Part shown: positions 12,598 to 19,507 of the stretch, one piece after another | Numbering within the stretch: position 1 is the stretch's first letter | Layout of the letters: every line of letters starts with the position of its first letter | NCBI GenBank assembly: GCA_945889495.1 | Contig: CAMDBU010000013.1 | Location: 1-61,418, forward strand | Direction of reading: 5' to 3' | Source of the DNA: Syntrophobacter sp. SbD2 | Lineage (GTDB): Bacteria > Desulfobacterota > Binatia > UBA9968 | DNA: 61,418 nt | Made by a program: the position numbers and the translations under genes | The notes under the pieces: generated by a model | Told to the model about the DNA's origin: nothing | Database searches by the model: none | What the model saw: only the letters and a program-made list of their open reading frames with translations

Positions 12598-13572
12598 TCA
12601 CCGTCCGTACAACTTCTTGATATAGCCGCTCCTATCGATCTCTTCGATCAAGCTGCCGTCGATCACGTCTTTGGCTTGGGTGATTTTCGAGTTGGCGTTG
12701 CGCACCGAGTCCATTACCGCTTGCACGCCTTTGGTTTCCGGGATCGGCCGTTCGCGCATGGCGGCGGCGACTCTGGGGTAGCTGTACTCTGGGCCTTTGA
12801 CGCCTTCGGCGCGCAGCACGGACAGGGCGAGCTCTTTGTTGGTCTTGAAAACGTAGATGCCTTCGATCAAGCCTTCGGCGAATTTTAACAACAGATCGCG
12901 CTTGGTCTTCAACAATTGCGTCGGCACCACCTGACCGAAGCGGGCGTAGTCGATGGGCAGCTCCAGCATGTCGACCATGACCCGGCAGCAGCCCGAGTCG
13001 GTGATGATCGGTACGTCGTAGGTGCCGAGTAGCGTGCCGTGCAGTTGTCCGGCGATCATCGCCGGCACGCGAGTGGTGCCGGTGGCTTGGATGATGCGCA
13101 CGTCCTTTTCCGGATCGAGGTTGAATTGGCGCAGTAGCATTCTGGTCGTCACATCCGACGACGAACCGAAGCGGCTGATGGCGACCTGCTTGCCTTTCAA
13201 ATCCTCCGGCGTCTTGATGTCGTTACGGACGACGAAGGCGAAGGGAAAACGATTGACGTAGACGCTGATCAACTTGCCGTCCAAGGCGCCGACGGACACG
13301 GCGTTTAACATCGCCGGCACGTCGGAATCGGCCAAATCCAAATCGCCGCCGACCATTGCTTGGGCCATGGTCGCGCCGCTGGTGAAATAGATCAGCCGGA
13401 CATCCAGGCCGCGTTTTTTCCACAGGCCGGCGCGCTCGATGGTCTTGTGCAGATTCTTCGCCACGCCGGTGCCGCTATAGCCGACCCGGACCAGCTGTTG
13501 GGCGGAGGCGGGGAGTGGGGCGAGCAGGGTAGCTACGATCGCGCTGAGGAGTAGGTGTCGGTTTTTTCGCAT
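12598..13572 (-). CDS. NitT/TauT-type solute-binding protein in the UbiD cluster
   Basis: 324 residues from ATG 13572 (AAGG about 9 bases upstream): signal peptide ending LAPLPASAQ, then LVRVGYSGTGVAKNLHKTIE, GLWKKRGLDVRLIYFTSGAT and MVGGDLDLADSDVPAMLNAV. The C-terminus DGSLIEEIDRSGYIKKLYG matches other copies in the window. It is the last gene of the minus-strand cluster with UbiD, the cupin and two amidohydrolases, separated from UbiD by a palindromic repeat. That position suggests it binds the substrate, or a close relative, of the pathway. No permease or ATPase gene is present. Confidence 0.9.
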   Translation of the reverse strand: MRKNRHLLLSAIVATLLAPLPASAQQLVRVGYSGTGVAKNLHKTIERAGLWKKRGLDVRLIYFTSGATMAQAMVGGDLDLADSDVPAMLNAVSVGALDGKLISVYVNRFPFAFVVRNDIKTPEDLKGKQVAISRFGSSSDVTTRMLLRQFNLDPEKDVRIIQATGTTRVPAMIAGQLHGTLLGTYDVPIITDSGCCRVMVDMLELPIDYARFGQVVPTQLLKTKRDLLLKFAEGLIEGIYVFKTNKELALSVLRAEGVKGPEYSYPRVAAAMRERPIPETKGVQAVMDSVRNANSKITQAKDVIDGSLIEEIDRSGYIKKLYGR

Positions 13573-13585
13573 GGTTGGGCCTTTT

Positions 13586-13671
13586 AGTAAGGAGTAAGTA
13601 GTTAGGAGTGAGGAGACGGGAGTTTCGGATTCCGGAGTCTCCTTACTCCTCACTCTTTACTCCTTACTTAA
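13586..13671. repeat. Palindromic repeat, GGAGTAAGTAGTTAGGAGTGAGG family
   Basis: Left arm AGTAAGGAGTAAGTAGTTAGG and AGTGAGGAGAC; right arm GTCTCCTTACTCCTCACTC then TTTACTCCTTACTTA. The arm pairing is long and imperfect. The right edge contains the TAA stop of the UbiD gene (13664-13666), and the left edge begins about 13 bases upstream of the next start (13572). Confidence 0.8.
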
Positions 13672-15073
13672 AAAACTTACCATATTTCTTCACCGCCAGT
13701 TCTTTCATCTCTTCGCTCGACCCAGAGACCTTGGGATAATCCTTCATCCATTCGTAGGGGCGGGTGGCGTCGATGACGGCGCGAGTGCTGAAGCCTTTTT
13801 TGTCGCGCGGAATCACTGGATCGAGCGGGCCGCTCCAGGCGCGGCGGATAAAATCGATGTCGGCCTGGGGATCGGAGCGCGTGCACATGGCCCAGGTGAC
13901 GTCGTTCAGGTCGTAGGGATCGATGTCGTCGTCGACCACCACGATGTAGCGGCCGAGATAGGCGCCGGCGCCGCATTGAGCGGCGACGAAGCCGGCTTGC
14001 TTGGCGTGGCCCGGATAACGTTGCTTGATCGATACGGCGGTGAAAAACCGTCCTTGGAAGCAGGCGACGCCGCGGATGTCGGGCACGCCGGCTTTTTCCA
14101 TGTGATCCCAGATAAACGCCGAGCGCACCAGGTTGTCGTCCGAGCCGCCGGGCGGGCGCGACGACGGCGCGCCAGTAAGAATGGGACGGTTGCGATGCAT
14201 CAACCGTTTCACCTTGATGATCGGTTCGGTGCGCTCGCCGCTGGCGTAGTAGCCGGTCCATTCGCCATAGGGACCTTCCGGCCGCTGGTTGTCGGGATAG
14301 CATTCGCCTTCGATGGTGATCTCGGAAAACGCCGGGATCGGTAGGCCGGTGTGTTTGCCGATGACCACATCGACGGCTTGGCCGCGGATGCCGCCGGCAT
14401 AGTCATATTCCGACTTGCCCCAGGGCAAGCTGTTGGCCGCGGCGGTGAGCAAAAGCGGATCGTCGCCGAAGCTGATCGCCACCGGGCAGGGCCGGCCCTG
14501 ATCGAAATATTTTTGCCGAATGATGCGCCCCTGTTTACCCGGCGAAATATAAAGTGCCAGAGTATTTTTGTCATGCACCATGACCCGGTAGCAGCCGATG
14601 TTGACCCAACCCTCGTCCATGTCGCGGGTGATGACCAGATGGGCGGTGCCCATGTAGCGGCCGCCGTCGCCTTCATGCCAGTGCGGCACAGGCAGGGAAA
14701 ACAGGTCGACATCGTCGCCGTCAAAAACATTTTCCATCACCGGGCCGCTGTCGACCACGCGCGGTGGAATATAAGTCGGATTGTTCAAGCGCTGGCGCCA
14801 GGCTTGTATGAATTGGTTACGGTCGTAGTCGAGAGGTAAGTGCGTGGTCAAACATTGGCGCTTGAGCGACTGATGGTGCACGCCGACCAGCACCCGGTGG
14901 CCGGCGGGATAATCCTTGATCTTGTCGAACAGGATCGCCGAGTAGGGCGGGTTGCGCGCGTAAACCTCCGACACCGCGCCCATTTCATATTTCCAATCGC
15001 AGCCCTCGACGGTGCGCATCTCGCCGAACTCGTCGACTTTCTCCATCCAGCCGCGTAAATCGTTGTAAAGCAT
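13664..15073 (-). CDS. UbiD-family (prenylated-FMN) decarboxylase
   Basis: 469 residues, matching UbiD length. Features are YNDLRGWMEKVDEFGEMRTV, the central PEGPYGEWTGYYASGE stretch with the conserved acid, IGKHTGLPIPAFSEITIEGE, and the C-terminal VVVDDDIDPYDLNDVTWAMC with TRSDPQADI. UbiD enzymes reversibly decarboxylate aromatic or alpha,beta-unsaturated acids using prenylated FMN made by UbiX; no ubiX is in the window. The gene sits 67 bases downstream of the cupin dioxygenase in the same transcription unit, so ring decarboxylation and cleavage may be consecutive steps. The substrate is unknown. Its stop codon lies inside a repeat. Confidence 0.9.
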   Translation of the reverse strand: MLYNDLRGWMEKVDEFGEMRTVEGCDWKYEMGAVSEVYARNPPYSAILFDKIKDYPAGHRVLVGVHHQSLKRQCLTTHLPLDYDRNQFIQAWRQRLNNPTYIPPRVVDSGPVMENVFDGDDVDLFSLPVPHWHEGDGGRYMGTAHLVITRDMDEGWVNIGCYRVMVHDKNTLALYISPGKQGRIIRQKYFDQGRPCPVAISFGDDPLLLTAAANSLPWGKSEYDYAGGIRGQAVDVVIGKHTGLPIPAFSEITIEGECYPDNQRPEGPYGEWTGYYASGERTEPIIKVKRLMHRNRPILTGAPSSRPPGGSDDNLVRSAFIWDHMEKAGVPDIRGVACFQGRFFTAVSIKQRYPGHAKQAGFVAAQCGAGAYLGRYIVVVDDDIDPYDLNDVTWAMCTRSDPQADIDFIRRAWSGPLDPVIPRDKKGFSTRAVIDATRPYEWMKDYPKVSGSSEEMKELAVKKYGKFFK

Positions 15074-15140: not shown

Positions 15141-16163
15141 CTATTTGGTCTGCGTTTCCTCGCGATAAAAGCCCAGGGCGTCGAGCACCGGTTTGTCGTT
15201 CATGACGAACAAAACCGCCGCGTCCTTGGAGTGATTGGTATGTTGATGCCATTGCCACTGCGGGATGGTAAAGCTGTCGCCTTCGCTCCACTCGAAGGTC
15301 TGGTCACCGATGACGGTGACACCGCTGCCGCGAAAAGCGTGGTAGATCATGCTGCTGGTGTGGCGATGGGATTTCGTCCTTTCGCCGGCGCGGAGCATGT
15401 GGATCTCACAGGAGAGCGTCGGCAGCGTCGGCCCGCCGGTGAGCGGATTGATGTAGCGTAAAACGATGCCGTCGTGGGGATCGCCGGGCCGTTCGCCCAG
15501 CGCCGCTAACGCTTTCTCGGTATCTTCCCAGCGGTAACGGTAGGGCGGCGGCTGGACGGATTCATTGCGTACCCAATCCGGCCGCGCTGGGCCAAGTTCG
15601 TAAGCCGAGTAGTCGCGCGGTTTGGTGACTTCTTGTTGCAACGTCGGATACATGTCGCCGAAGCTGATCTCGAAGAATTTCACCATTGGCAAGTCGGTGC
15701 CATCGATCCAGATGATCGGCTCGGCCGAGCCGTTGTAGTGGTCATGCCAGGTGCGGTTGGGCGTGGTGACCAGATCGCCACACTGCATCGGGAATGCTTC
15801 GCCGTTGACCGTGGTTTGGGCGCCGCCGCCGCGAATCACGAAGCGGATCGCGCCCATGGTGTGGCGGTGCGCTTCGGCGACCTCGCCCGGTTTCACCAGC
15901 TGCACGCCCATGGCCAAGGTATGCGTGGTGCGAAATTTATTTGGCGTGTGAAAGCCGATGAAGCGGCGCGCGGTCTGTTCCAGAGTCAGCAGCTCGCCGG
16001 CTTTGATCAGGCCGTCATGGACGTCCTGCCAGCGCCAAATATGGGGATCGTAGGAGGCTTTCGGTTCGTAGGTCTCGGCGATGTTGCCGGCGTTCCAAAA
16101 GCCCAACAGATGCTTGTCGGCGAGCTGACGGTTGAATTCTGCCAATGCGTCGGCGCTGCTCAT
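15141..16163 (-). CDS. Bicupin dioxygenase, gentisate 1,2-dioxygenase-like
   Basis: 340 residues from ATG 16163 (AGAGGA 7 bases upstream). Two cupin domains are present. The first carries EAHRHTMGAIRFVIRGGG with later HDHYNGSAEPI; the second carries KSHRHTSSMIYHAFRGSG and WQWHQHTNHSKD. Gentisate and related 1,2-dioxygenases use Fe(II) held by the first-cupin His residues to open a hydroxylated ring. The order UbiD-cupin-amidohydrolase supports degradation of a hydroxybenzoate-like acid. Salicylate or 1-hydroxy-2-naphthoate dioxygenase are alternatives within the same family. Confidence 0.85.
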   Translation of the reverse strand: MSSADALAEFNRQLADKHLLGFWNAGNIAETYEPKASYDPHIWRWQDVHDGLIKAGELLTLEQTARRFIGFHTPNKFRTTHTLAMGVQLVKPGEVAEAHRHTMGAIRFVIRGGGAQTTVNGEAFPMQCGDLVTTPNRTWHDHYNGSAEPIIWIDGTDLPMVKFFEISFGDMYPTLQQEVTKPRDYSAYELGPARPDWVRNESVQPPPYRYRWEDTEKALAALGERPGDPHDGIVLRYINPLTGGPTLPTLSCEIHMLRAGERTKSHRHTSSMIYHAFRGSGVTVIGDQTFEWSEGDSFTIPQWQWHQHTNHSKDAAVLFVMNDKPVLDALGFYREETQTK

Positions 16164-16177
16164 CGCGGTTCCTCTTT

Positions 16178-17308
16178 CTAGTTGGCGTCGATCCGGTAAA
16201 GCGCGGCGCCATTGCGCCACTCGATGCGTTGCCGGTCTTGATCATCTAGCGCGGATAAACATTTTTCGCGATAGCCACGGCTATCGGGCCAGGTGGAATT
16301 GGCCGCCGGAAAGTGGCTCGACCAGAGAATGTTGCCGGCGCCGATATGGCGCGCGTGGATCTTCGCCTCGTCGTACCAGCTCGTCAGGTAGCACTGGCGA
16401 TGAAACATTTCCGAGGGTTTCAAGGGATAATCGCAGTGATCCTGTTCGTATTGATGATCGGCGTATTCGAGCAAGAAAGTCCCCCAGGCGATGGTGCTGC
16501 CGGCGAAGACGACTTTGAGTTTGGCAAAGCGCAGCAGGATTCTCGAAAACAGCAGGTTGGTCAGGTCGAACACTGCGCTGGCCGAGCGCGTCGCCGCCCG
16601 CATCGCCGCGGCGAGCTCCGGCTTCAGGTTGGGCGGCTGGGGAAATTGAAACAGCTCCGGTGTCGAGCCGGCGCCAAAGCAGAGCGGCACTTCGAGCTCT
16701 TGGCAGGCCGCCCAGATCGGGTCGTAGTCGGCCTCGTTGATATGGGGCAGAGCGGCCAATTGCATGGGCGCGGCGGGAAAAATCACGCCGCGGTGGCCGC
16801 GGCCGACGGCGCGGCGCAGTTCGGCCACGGCGCCGGCGATAGGCGTGAGCGGCAGGATGCACTGAGGAATGAAGCGCGGGTTGACGCTCGCCCACTCGTC
16901 GATGAGCCAGTCGTTGTAGGCGTGCGCGCAGGCAAGCGCCAGTTCAGTATCGGCGATGGCGCCGAAGCGCTCGCCGGAAAAGCCCGCCAGACTGGGATAG
17001 AGCGCGCTATAACCGATGCCGTCGTCGTCCATGGCTTTGAGTCTTGCCGCCGCTTCGTAGCTAGCCTTCGGTATGTCCTCCCAGCGTCGCGCCGTCAGCG
17101 CGCGATCCGGCAGCAGTGCTCCAATATCAGCCATGTCGGCCAGCGTGAATGGCCGGCCGTCGACCAACCAACGATCGACGCCGTCGTCGTCCCGTTCGAT
17201 ATGCGGGATGCGCGCGCCGAACTTCGATTTTGACAAGCGGTCGGTCCAGAGCGTCGGTGGTTCGATGACTTGATCGACGGCGCTGATGATGTGATTAGGT
17301 GAGGTCAT
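16178..17308 (-). CDS. Amidohydrolase-2 family protein lacking metal-ligand motifs (probable pseudoenzyme)
   Basis: 376 residues from ATG 17308 (TTG 17314 also possible). The overall fold matches ACMSD/amidohydrolase-2: ALACAHAYNDWLIDEWASVN, GHRGVIFPA and LKVVFAGSTIAWGTFLLEYA. The metal site is gone. The N-terminal DxH of the neighbours is VDQ (residues 11-13), the central FHAS-type His is Gly in CFGAGS (G212), and the C-terminal SDYPH is SHFPA (around H332). It follows an intact paralogue by 84 bases. It may be a regulatory or structural partner of that enzyme, or use no metal. Confidence 0.85.
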   Translation of the reverse strand: MTSPNHIISAVDQVIEPPTLWTDRLSKSKFGARIPHIERDDDGVDRWLVDGRPFTLADMADIGALLPDRALTARRWEDIPKASYEAAARLKAMDDDGIGYSALYPSLAGFSGERFGAIADTELALACAHAYNDWLIDEWASVNPRFIPQCILPLTPIAGAVAELRRAVGRGHRGVIFPAAPMQLAALPHINEADYDPIWAACQELEVPLCFGAGSTPELFQFPQPPNLKPELAAAMRAATRSASAVFDLTNLLFSRILLRFAKLKVVFAGSTIAWGTFLLEYADHQYEQDHCDYPLKPSEMFHRQCYLTSWYDEAKIHARHIGAGNILWSSHFPAANSTWPDSRGYREKCLSALDDQDRQRIEWRNGAALYRIDAN

Positions 17309-17328
17309 GGTCAATTCGGGATTTGGAT

Positions 17329-17395
17329 TTCACCACAGAGGGCACAGAGTTCACAGAGAAAAATTCGTTTACGTTCTTTGCGGCCAATCTTCCTA
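17329..17395. repeat. Degenerate palindromic repeat, CACAGAG/GCAAAGAACG variant
   Basis: TTCACCACAGAGGGCACAGAG and TTCACAGAG on the left, AACGTAAACG/TTCTTTGCGGCC on the right. It is related in layout to the CACGAAG family. It fills the gap between the two amidohydrolase genes and begins within a few bases of the stop of the gene at 17393-18535. Confidence 0.55.
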
Positions 17396-18535
17396 CAGCC
17401 GATACAGCGCCTGGGCGTTGCCGTACAACATTTTCTTACGCTCGTCTTCGGCCACGCCGGCTAGCGAGCGTTCGACGAACTGCCAGGAGTCGGGATAGGT
17501 CGACGCGATGTGCGGATAGTCCGATTCCCACATGATGTTGTCGACGCCGACCGCGTGGCGCAGCTCGATGCCGGCCTGCTCGTACCAGAAATTCACGTAA
17601 ACTTGTTCGCGGATAAGCTCGCTCGGCCGGCGCGGCAAGCCATGGCGCCAGAGCTGGCGCCGCTCCCATTCGTGGTCGCAGGCCGATTGTACGCAGCTCA
17701 CCGAGCCGATGCCAGTTTCGGCGAAGACCCATTTGGATTTTGGAAATTTGTACGCGATGCCGGAGAAAATTAAATTGGGTACGATCTGCGCCGGCCAAGA
17801 CGAAGTCGGCACGGTAAACGCCGCATGCTGCTGGTAGGGCGTGTAGCCGGACCATTCGGGAAATGTCAGCTTGCGCGCCAGGCCGGCCGAGGCGTGAAAA
17901 TGGATCGGCATGGCGAGCTCCTGGCAAACTTCCCAGAGCGGATACCAGTAGGGCTCGCCGATATGGGGCAACGACTCGACCATCAAGCTCGGCAGCGCGA
18001 ACATGACAATGCCGCGGTGGCCTTTGCTCTCGGCGCGGCGCACTTCGGCGACGATGGTCTCCATGCCGCACAGTAGCGGGATCATCGCCAGGGAGATAAA
18101 TCGCGCGCTCGCGCGGGTGAGCTCGCCAAGGGAATCGTTGTAAGCTTGCACGCAGGCGATCTCGAAATCGGCGTCGTTGTACTGGTGAAACGAACTCGGG
18201 TCGTTGGGGAACAGCACTTCGGCGTCGATGCCGTCGGCGTCCAAGGCTTGCAGGCGATCAGCAGCGACATAGGCCTTGGCCGGCACCTCCGCCCAGCGCT
18301 GCGGATAGAGATTGCGCTGGGGATCGCCCATCACCGCCGGGCAGTTGCATACGCCGCGGCTGTGCAGCGGCTTGCCATTGACATGCCAGCGCTCGACTTT
18401 TTGGCCTTTGCTCTCGACTTCTTTGATCTGCGGAATGCGCGCGCCGAATTTGCTTTTCGCCATGCGGTCGAGAAACGCATTGGGTTCGGTGACCACGTGG
18501 GAGTCGGCGCTAATCAGGCCATGGCGAATGTCCAT
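17393..18535 (-). CDS. Amidohydrolase-2 (ACMSD-like) metal-dependent hydrolase or decarboxylase
   Basis: 380 residues. Metal-site motifs are intact: ISADSHVVTEP at the N-terminus (D11, H13), MPIHFHASAG in the centre and WESDYPHIAST near the end. It also has KFGARIPQIKEVESKG, shared with the adjacent ligand-less paralogue. The family includes 2-amino-3-carboxymuconate semialdehyde decarboxylase and gamma-resorcylate decarboxylase, so decarboxylation of an aromatic or ring-cleavage product fits the UbiD/cupin context. It is the second gene of the cluster, after the heme-oxygenase-fold gene. AGGA lies upstream of the ATG. Confidence 0.9.
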   Translation of the reverse strand: MDIRHGLISADSHVVTEPNAFLDRMAKSKFGARIPQIKEVESKGQKVERWHVNGKPLHSRGVCNCPAVMGDPQRNLYPQRWAEVPAKAYVAADRLQALDADGIDAEVLFPNDPSSFHQYNDADFEIACVQAYNDSLGELTRASARFISLAMIPLLCGMETIVAEVRRAESKGHRGIVMFALPSLMVESLPHIGEPYWYPLWEVCQELAMPIHFHASAGLARKLTFPEWSGYTPYQQHAAFTVPTSSWPAQIVPNLIFSGIAYKFPKSKWVFAETGIGSVSCVQSACDHEWERRQLWRHGLPRRPSELIREQVYVNFWYEQAGIELRHAVGVDNIMWESDYPHIASTYPDSWQFVERSLAGVAEDERKKMLYGNAQALYRL

Positions 18536-18619: not shown

Positions 18620-19300
18620 TTAATCCATTTCCGCCATGGCGCTGGCCACCGCGCCGTGGAAACTGCGCTCGATGGCTAACGACTCCTCGGCGCCGCGCAG
18701 GATTTGCTGGGCGGTCTGGTCGTCGACGACGTAGCGATGAAAAATCTCCGCCAGCAGATCGGTGTGATCGACGTCGGCCACCAGATGGACCTGGACGTTG
18801 ATGTCCTGGTCTTTTTTCTTGATGCCGAGCTCGACTTCCTGGCGCTTGACCAAGCGTTGAGTAAGCGTGCCGCCGCTGACGACATGGTCGTTGTTGCGCC
18901 GCTCGAGAATATGCGAGCAGGCCAAGCCTTCGAGCCAGGGTTTTTCCTGGGCGCAGTGGAGCCAAGCGTAAAATGCCGCACGGGCGCCGGGGATCATGTC
19001 GGATTCTTTCTTGTCGCCGAGATCGGCTTCGGTGACATGGGCCTTGCCCATGCGCGGATCGTACATCAGCTCGTCTTTTTCATGCTCCCAGATGGCGCGC
19101 TTGACGTCGAGGGGCGCTTTGCATGCCACCGCGGCCCAGCAATCGCGCCGATTGTTGCTGAAAAAACTCATATGCTGGTGGCGAAAGGCCAAGCGGGCGG
19201 GATTGAGCGGCACGGCGAGCATCCGTTTGATCTCCGCCGTGTCGTACCACTGGTTGCACAGGACGTTTAGTTGCTGTTCGACTTCGGCCCATTTAGTCAT
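18620..19300 (-). CDS. Heme-oxygenase-fold protein (PqqC/TENA-like, possible di-iron oxygenase)
   Basis: 226 residues from ATG 19300 (AGGAAGA upstream). All-helical in character, with RLAFRHQHMSFFSNNRRDCW, AIWEHEKDELMYDPRMGKAH and VHLVADVDHTDLLAEIFHRY. This pattern is typical of the PqqC-like / iron-containing redox enzyme group. Candidate metal ligands are E72, H73 or E74, H130, H172, D176 or D178, and H179. Members include PqqC and di-iron oxidases such as CADD and UndA. As first gene of the UbiD-cupin-amidohydrolase cluster it may add oxygen to, or oxidatively cleave, the pathway substrate. The metal requirement is inferred. Confidence 0.7.
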   Translation of the reverse strand: MTKWAEVEQQLNVLCNQWYDTAEIKRMLAVPLNPARLAFRHQHMSFFSNNRRDCWAAVACKAPLDVKRAIWEHEKDELMYDPRMGKAHVTEADLGDKKESDMIPGARAAFYAWLHCAQEKPWLEGLACSHILERRNNDHVVSGGTLTQRLVKRQEVELGIKKKDQDINVQVHLVADVDHTDLLAEIFHRYVVDDQTAQQILRGAEESLAIERSFHGAVASAMAEMD

Positions 19301-19507
19301 CGCATCTTCCTTCGAGACGGTATTGCCGAGCGATTGAAACCAGCTCGACAGACGCGAATATATGTCGGTGTGGAAACCGCTGTCAATCAAACGAGGAGGA
19401 AGAAACGGCGGAGAGAGCTGAGATGCTAAATTCGAAGTAGCCTGCTAGCGCGGGTTCATGCGGTTGTTGATCTGATTGTGCGCGAAACGGCGCATGTAGT
19501 CTTCCGC

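Follow-up and report, generated by a model that had tools for sequence, protein, structure and literature searches.

The 61,418-nucleotide contig CAMDBU010000013.1 of Syntrophobacter sp. SbD2 (assembly GCA_945889495.1; the whole stretch is called the window, and its genome G000) encodes two adjoining proteins of the amidohydrolase family PF04909: one that has lost every metal ligand (gene A) and a twin with an intact site (gene B). We consider it probable that B and A form a heteromeric dinuclear oxygenase with B as the catalytic subunit and A as an auxiliary one that is free of metal. This reading is supported by the ligands of B, which match those of AibH2 one for one; by linkage of the two genes in both directions, with no readable ligand lost from the partner B; by trees in which A and B each form one clade, with parallel distances; and by purifying selection on A together with a confident structural model. 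The two-subunit enzyme AibH1H2 provides a precedent.

Each of the two proteins matches a single Pfam family at E <= 0.001, PF04909 (A, 73.9 bits; B, 95.6 bits; cut-off 26.4 bits), and they share 36% identity across 379 alignment columns. Gene A begins with an ATG at 17308, with an in-frame TTG at 17314, and runs unbroken for 376 codons. In an alignment of 131 proteins that includes both, B carries the complete six-ligand set D11, H13, H214, E273, D339 and H342; at the same positions A reads V11, Q13, G212, G270, H332 and A335, retaining none. The initial annotation had reported three altered metal-site motifs in A, and these are as described (SAVDQV, LCFGAG and SSHFPAA), but its list was incomplete: it missed the beta-6 glutamate, where FAE has become FAG, a fourth lost site that brings the number of ligand positions gone to six. 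It was right that the other four amidohydrolases of the window keep their metal sites, as all read D/H/H/E/D/H at the six positions. Across the genome survey (128 of 142 hits aligned, shorter hits excluded), window A is the sole protein among the 128 to differ from D/H/H/E/D/H at every position. This loss is more than chance: window A alters 6 of the 57 columns that are invariant in 22 other A-family proteins, and these 6 include all 4 of the ligand columns that belong to the 57 (hypergeometric P = 3.8e-5, uncorrected; 27 A rows, of which 5 decayed rows were removed post hoc).

A comparable arrangement is known from AibH1H2, the hydroxylase of the 2-aminoisobutyrate monooxygenase of Rhodococcus wratislaviensis. 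Crystal structures show a heterotetramer of a dinuclear AibH2, whose ligands are Asp25, His27, His211, Glu265, Asp337 and His340, and a mononuclear AibH1 (PMC7782822). Like A/B, it combines two PF04909 proteins, one with the six-ligand dinuclear site, and the linkage typical of it, a six-ligand gene adjoining a ligand-poor PF04909 gene, is found in A/B. AibH1 resembles A in lacking the sixth ligand and in the auxiliary role that we propose for A. It differs in keeping five ligands (D, H, H, E, D) and one Zn/Mn ion, whereas window A keeps none of the five. Later work regards the AibH1 metal as probably structural; it could not settle what this metal does, because replacing residues of the site made the protein insoluble, and it urges more experiments (PMC10401708). 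In a review, AibH1 is suggested to shape the beta-8 loop of AibH2 (PMC12141560).

The initial annotation placed A beside an intact paralogue and proposed checking whether related genomes keep the pair, which they do. We collected A-like genes from four other genomes of the genus, from the family, from the phylum and class, and from public genomes, where the best 80 of 550 scan matches were retained, leaving loci L113-L216 out of the count and removing duplicates reached by two routes. Among the resulting 52 distinct A genes, 49 are immediately preceded by a B gene of the same orientation, whereas three lie at contig ends with 0, 158 and 310 nucleotides remaining upstream; a search of the 310-nucleotide stretch found no piece of a B gene. 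The linkage also holds in reverse: in a family search of 25 genomes (at most 78 candidates scored per genome; G001:C152 taken from the genus search and G024:C406 truncated by a contig end), all 19 close B matches (at least 392 bits) have an A neighbour. Partner B proteins read DHHEDH in 44 cases, --HEDH in 4 with a missing N terminus and DH---- in 1 with a split frame, with no readable ligand lost in any of the 49. The more distant relatives in the alignment, which have no such partner, keep all six ligands. At E <= 1e-85, A is present in at least 29 of 148 genomes of the class (13 candidates scored per genome) and in at least 2 of 297 genomes of an even phylum-wide draw (6 candidates scored per genome). 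Long frames of 626-821 amino acids in five genomes were considered as B-A fusions and ruled out, as B and A lie in different frames. At one locus (L240:2649-4009, G328:C169), the B gene of the pair is split between two frames, through either a mutation or an error of assembly.

Ligand loss in the A family is graded. D/H/H/E occupies the first four positions in 39 of 48 readable A proteins, and most members of the family follow it with Asn, Gln or another residue other than Asp at beta-8, the most frequent full state being DHHENL (n = 20). Among 49 readable proteins, the beta-8 His occurs in none and the beta-8 Asp in one; five A-family proteins read DHHGER. The orthologues of the window gene read VHHENA in G002, VHRENA in G004 and VQGGHA in the window. 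A further case, from Dehalococcoidia (L044, 5791-7110), reads ARNDNR, with all six positions changed separately, one of them from Glu to Asp, in an open frame beside an intact B; here 11 invariant columns are changed, including all 4 ligand columns (P = 8.4e-4). An excess of changes at ligand columns fell short of significance in L002 (P = 0.051), L003 (P = 0.14) and L040 (P = 0.55). Judged by the aligned residues, window A appears to be the end point of a stepwise loss, and the one further loss, in L044, is independent. At the other extreme, a relative at L078 (5422-7131) reads DHHEDL, the AibH1 pattern with five ligands kept, and is perhaps an image of the ancestral state.

A tree built without the ligand columns, from 23 of 27 pairs (near-copies and fragments omitted) and 11 chosen outgroup rows, recovered A as one clade (support 100/99) and B as one clade (100/97). 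A, B and three intact single proteins also group together, to the exclusion of the 11 outgroup rows (100/98). These three (L112:9511-10743 on G000:C45, L013 and L043), at 34-36% identity to A, are possible unpaired descendants of the A/B ancestor. Distances within A track those within B (r = 0.86, 27 pairs; none of 2,000 permutations reaches that value), although a shared operon by itself could produce this too. A is under purifying selection: pairwise ratios of non-synonymous to synonymous substitution (dN/dS) are about 0.10-0.14 for A, with the synonymous distance (dS) saturated at 1.6-2.4, and 0.10-0.14 for B.

The AlphaFold2 model of A, built from 55 aligned sequences, has a predicted local distance difference test score (pLDDT) of 92.9 and a predicted template modelling score (pTM) of 0.92 (68.7 and 0.76 when built from 9 sequences), and on this basis A is confidently predicted to retain the triosephosphate isomerase (TIM)-barrel fold. 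The earlier claims that A is free of stops, under selection and otherwise intact in fold are thus upheld, the last as a prediction. The top structural match of the model is DitZ (Z 45.4, root mean square deviation 2.5 over 368 residues), then PtmU3 (Z 38.9); AibH2 (Z 33.2) and AibH1 (Z 31.4) lie amid many other matches. DitZ (PDB 8uyr, Rhodococcus rhodochrous) and PtmU3 (PDB 6omp) are also the closest solved proteins by sequence for A and B alike. An A-family profile scores 164.8 bits against DitZ and 137 against PtmU3 but 30.5 against AibH2 and 27.2 against AibH1; in the AibH1H2 entries, residue numbering served to assign chain A to AibH1 and chain B to AibH2. Because the profile fits DitZ and PtmU3 far better, the AibH1H2 arrangement seems to have arisen independently in the A/B pair. 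A would resemble AibH1 in role, but the profile and fold scores suggest that it is probably from another lineage.

From the sequences, linkage, tree, selection and predicted fold, we infer how the complex, its metal content, its oxygenase chemistry and its substrate may fit together. B and A would be the subunits of a single heteromeric enzyme that belongs to the amidohydrolase-related dinuclear oxygenases. B would hold a dinuclear Fe/Fe or Mn/Fe site and perform catalysis, probably hydroxylating an aromatic or related acid to a product whose ring would be cleaved by the operon's cupin dioxygenase. A would be a pseudoenzyme that shares the fold of B, pairs with it and keeps the active-site loops or substrate pocket of B in shape. 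In the A lineage the beta-8 His would have been lost first, with the beta-8 Asp in all but one known case, and because these ligands are lost the lineage would have been left with at most an AibH1-like mononuclear site. The window lineage would then have shed its remaining ligands along the orthologue series given above and would now be metal-free.

Several observations weigh against this heteromeric oxygenase. The linkage and the parallel trees would also be expected from a shared pathway without A-B contact. The two trees conflict in the closest trio, A grouping the window (G000) with G004 and B grouping it with G002, and A is the least conserved gene of the operon, with 67-68% identity among the three closest genomes versus 73-91% for the others. 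A metal-free A requires compensation of some kind, because substitutions at the AibH1 metal site left that protein insoluble. The related PtmU3 works without such a partner, and SfbO shows activity on its own (PMC10811679). A Rieske ferredoxin gene usually adjoins known members, and AibH1H2 has a Rieske partner, AibG, whereas none was found beside A/B: a motif scan detected no Rieske motif in any window frame of at least 60 codons, and across 36 relative loci it gave four hits, none clearly a small ferredoxin beside a pair (in L107, L029 and L034 the frames span 307-415 codons; in L226 the frame has 93 codons and is truncated where the stretch ends). A small Rieske ferredoxin gene nearby was the criterion by which the dinuclear oxygenases were discovered, an association and not a requirement (PMC10811679), and a reductase acting in trans is possible because the five genomes of the genus carry 31 to 43 Rieske matches each.

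The same points feed the alternatives. That A and B share no complex, A being a separate non-catalytic binding protein (a ligand sensor or metabolite carrier) co-regulated in the same pathway, draws on the fact that the evidence for partnership consists entirely of linkage and co-inheritance, and on related enzymes acting alone. We think it unlikely, as none of the 19 close B matches lacks A, whereas among 37 loci, with flanks of unequal length, haem-oxygenase-like (HDO-like) genes occur in 10 and gentisate-type cupins in 11, which makes the pair the constant part of these loci; the superfamily precedent for such pairing, AibH1H2, is moreover a heterotetramer. A more serious competitor, although still doubtful, leaves the A-B heteromer valid and makes B a non-redox dinuclear hydrolase or decarboxylase. 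The window has no Rieske gene, ligands alone do not reveal chemistry, and many PF04909 enzymes are non-redox (PMC10811679); yet B has the D/H/H/E/D/H set of AibH2 and not the HHHH+D/E pattern (found in a minority of the PF04909 proteins of the genome), and of its closest solved relatives, DitZ and PtmU3, the latter is a hydroxylase.

Two further alternatives concern A alone, and both seem very improbable to us. One takes A for a decaying gene under relaxed selection with no specific role. It evolves faster than its operon neighbours and its ligand residues vary among close relatives, but its dN/dS stays at about 0.10-0.14 despite a dS of at least 1.6, its frame has no stop, it keeps 51 of 57 family-invariant columns with losses concentrated at the ligands, its predicted fold is confident, and L044, whose frame is also open and whose partner B is intact, repeats the ligand loss independently. 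On dN/dS, model confidence and invariant columns, we also judged it unlikely that A is a pseudogene. The other, that the pocket of A now houses a different cofactor or catalytic apparatus in place of its metal, could point to the polar Q13 and H332 in the former site. A new functional site would need conservation, however, and the site differs among the three closest orthologues and again, in a dissimilar way, in the independent L044. The different cofactor offered for A by the initial annotation is unsupported because these orthologues carry different site residues.

That annotation had also proposed ACMSD as the frame of comparison. ACMSD and the gamma-resorcylate decarboxylases share the fold of A and B, and their site is mononuclear, formed by HxH, His, His and Asp. 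Sequence similarity to them is detectable, and the HHHH+D/E pattern is present in part of the PF04909 proteins of the genome. B instead has D11-x-H13 at beta-1 and E273 at beta-6, in place of the His-x-His and beta-6 His of those enzymes. The ligands of B rule out an ACMSD-type mononuclear site, and the ACMSD framing is unsupported because B has the dinuclear-oxygenase ligand set. SfbO and other amidohydrolase-related dinuclear oxygenases resemble B in being PF04909 proteins with three carboxylates and three His; they were studied as single proteins found through an adjoining Rieske gene (PMC10811679), whereas B has a constantly linked degenerate partner.

Inactive chains that serve a partner also occur in a different branch of the amidohydrolase superfamily, that of the pseudo-dihydroorotase. 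In the aspartate transcarbamoylase of Pseudomonas aeruginosa, an inactive dihydroorotase-like chain is required for the activity of its partner (PMC7053772); that partner is a transcarbamoylase, whereas in A/B it is a paralogue. The combination of catalytic and auxiliary subunits of amidohydrolase fold is already known from AibH1H2; an auxiliary subunit that is predicted to lack metal and has graded intermediates is apparently new. We found no description of such a subunit in the literature searched, which lay mostly outside subscription journals. The literature matches listed contain no description of the B-A pair and nothing on DitZ, which was compared through its structure entry, and the search returned no paper that combines Binatota and amidohydrolase.

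Within the A family, natural versions occur that keep five ligands (L078), four (the DHHENL proteins), three (G002), two (G004) and none (the window), each with an intact partner, and because these graded versions exist beside intact partners the role of an AibH1-type auxiliary metal is directly testable. A/B in this genome is thus a natural test of whether the auxiliary half of such enzymes needs metal: if A acts on B as AibH1 does on AibH2 but without metal, the auxiliary metal is not necessary to the arrangement. We put forward, tentatively and with doubts that slightly outweigh our confidence, that in the A family an auxiliary subunit evolved for a second time, independently, and lost its metal site stepwise, ending metal-free at least twice while still serving its partner; the structural metal would then be dispensable, and A would be a pure scaffold or would complete the active site of its partner in trans. 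The comparison suggests that catalytic-plus-auxiliary oxygenase pairs evolved more than once within a family commonly annotated as plain amidohydrolase.

The pair lies in an apparent operon (Table 1), in which the minus-strand order is HDO-like protein, B, A, gentisate-type cupin, UbiD decarboxylase and substrate-binding protein, with gaps of 10-84 nucleotides. G004 has the identical six-gene order, and an HDO-like homologue stands immediately before B in both G004 and G002; at L233, several HDO/TenA-like homologues are clustered ahead of another pair. The Haem_oxygenas_2 match of the HDO-like protein (18.4 bits) is under the Pfam cut-off of 28.9. The cupin matches AminoSalDhMabB with 314 bits and gentisate_1_2 with 285 bits, both under the equivalog cut-offs, and an alternative GTG start at 16220 would make it overlap A.

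Table 1. Positions of the A/B pair, its metal-site segments and the other genes of the apparent operon in the window
Feature	Position	Strand	Basis
HDO/TenA-like (haem-oxygenase-like) protein, first gene of the apparent operon	18620..19390	-	Weak Pfam match, Haem_oxygenas_2, E 0.002
Gene B, PF04909 twin with intact site, 380 amino acids	17393..18535	-	Pfam; six ligands present
B beta-8 site, D339 and H342 intact	17510..17521	-	Ligand alignment
Gene A, degenerate PF04909 protein, 376 amino acids	16178..17308	-	Open frame; Pfam; AlphaFold2 model; six lost ligand positions
A beta-1 site, V11 and Q13	17270..17278	-	Readable A-family proteins: D in 46/50 at the first, H in 48/50 at the second
A beta-5 site, G212	16673..16675	-	Readable A-family proteins: H in 48/51
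A beta-6 site, G270	16499..16501	-	Readable A-family proteins: E in 42/49
A beta-8 site, H332 and A335	16304..16315	-	Asp/His in B; readable A-family proteins: Asp in 1/49, His in 0/49
Cupin ring-cleavage dioxygenase, gentisate / 5-aminosalicylate type	15141..16163	-	NCBIfam matches; ATG at 16163
UbiD-family decarboxylase	13664..15073	-	Pfam UbiD, 209.9 bits
NMT1/SsuA-type substrate-binding protein, last gene of the apparent operon	12598..13653	-	Pfam NMT1, 54.3 bits

Operon proteins differ in which of the two closest genomes they resemble more (loci L104 and L105 compared). Window B is 88% identical to its counterpart in G002 and 80% to that in G004, whereas the HDO protein is nearer G004 (84 versus 78% for G002), as is the substrate-binding protein (85 versus 79%). 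In synonymous distance, however, the HDO gene has a dS of 0.87 to G002 and 1.20 to G004, so that the split seen in the proteins is not mirrored. Replacement of B alone is possible at most, because the synonymous distances lack the protein-level split.

The genome of 5.64 Mb (loci L112, L114-L216 and the window) has 148 PF04909 matches. Of the 128 aligned, 100 have the full D/H/H/E/D/H and another 6, whose first two positions are unread, show --HEDH; by sequence this is a large number of predicted dinuclear-site proteins for one bacterium. In an unsystematic selection of adjoining PF04909 pairs (L158, L150 and L168) and a tandem in L231, both members are intact where covered. An adjoining pair at L134 (173-1315 and 1373-2470, G000:C49) reads DHHEDH beside QHHDNY and is possibly, on these residues, a second and different odd pair. 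Two PF04909 frames at L176 (349-1815 and 7683-9170, G000:C41), of 489 and 496 codons, read DHHEQN and DHHEQL; in these the beta-8 Asp has become Gln and the His is lost, making them a further, partly degenerate group.

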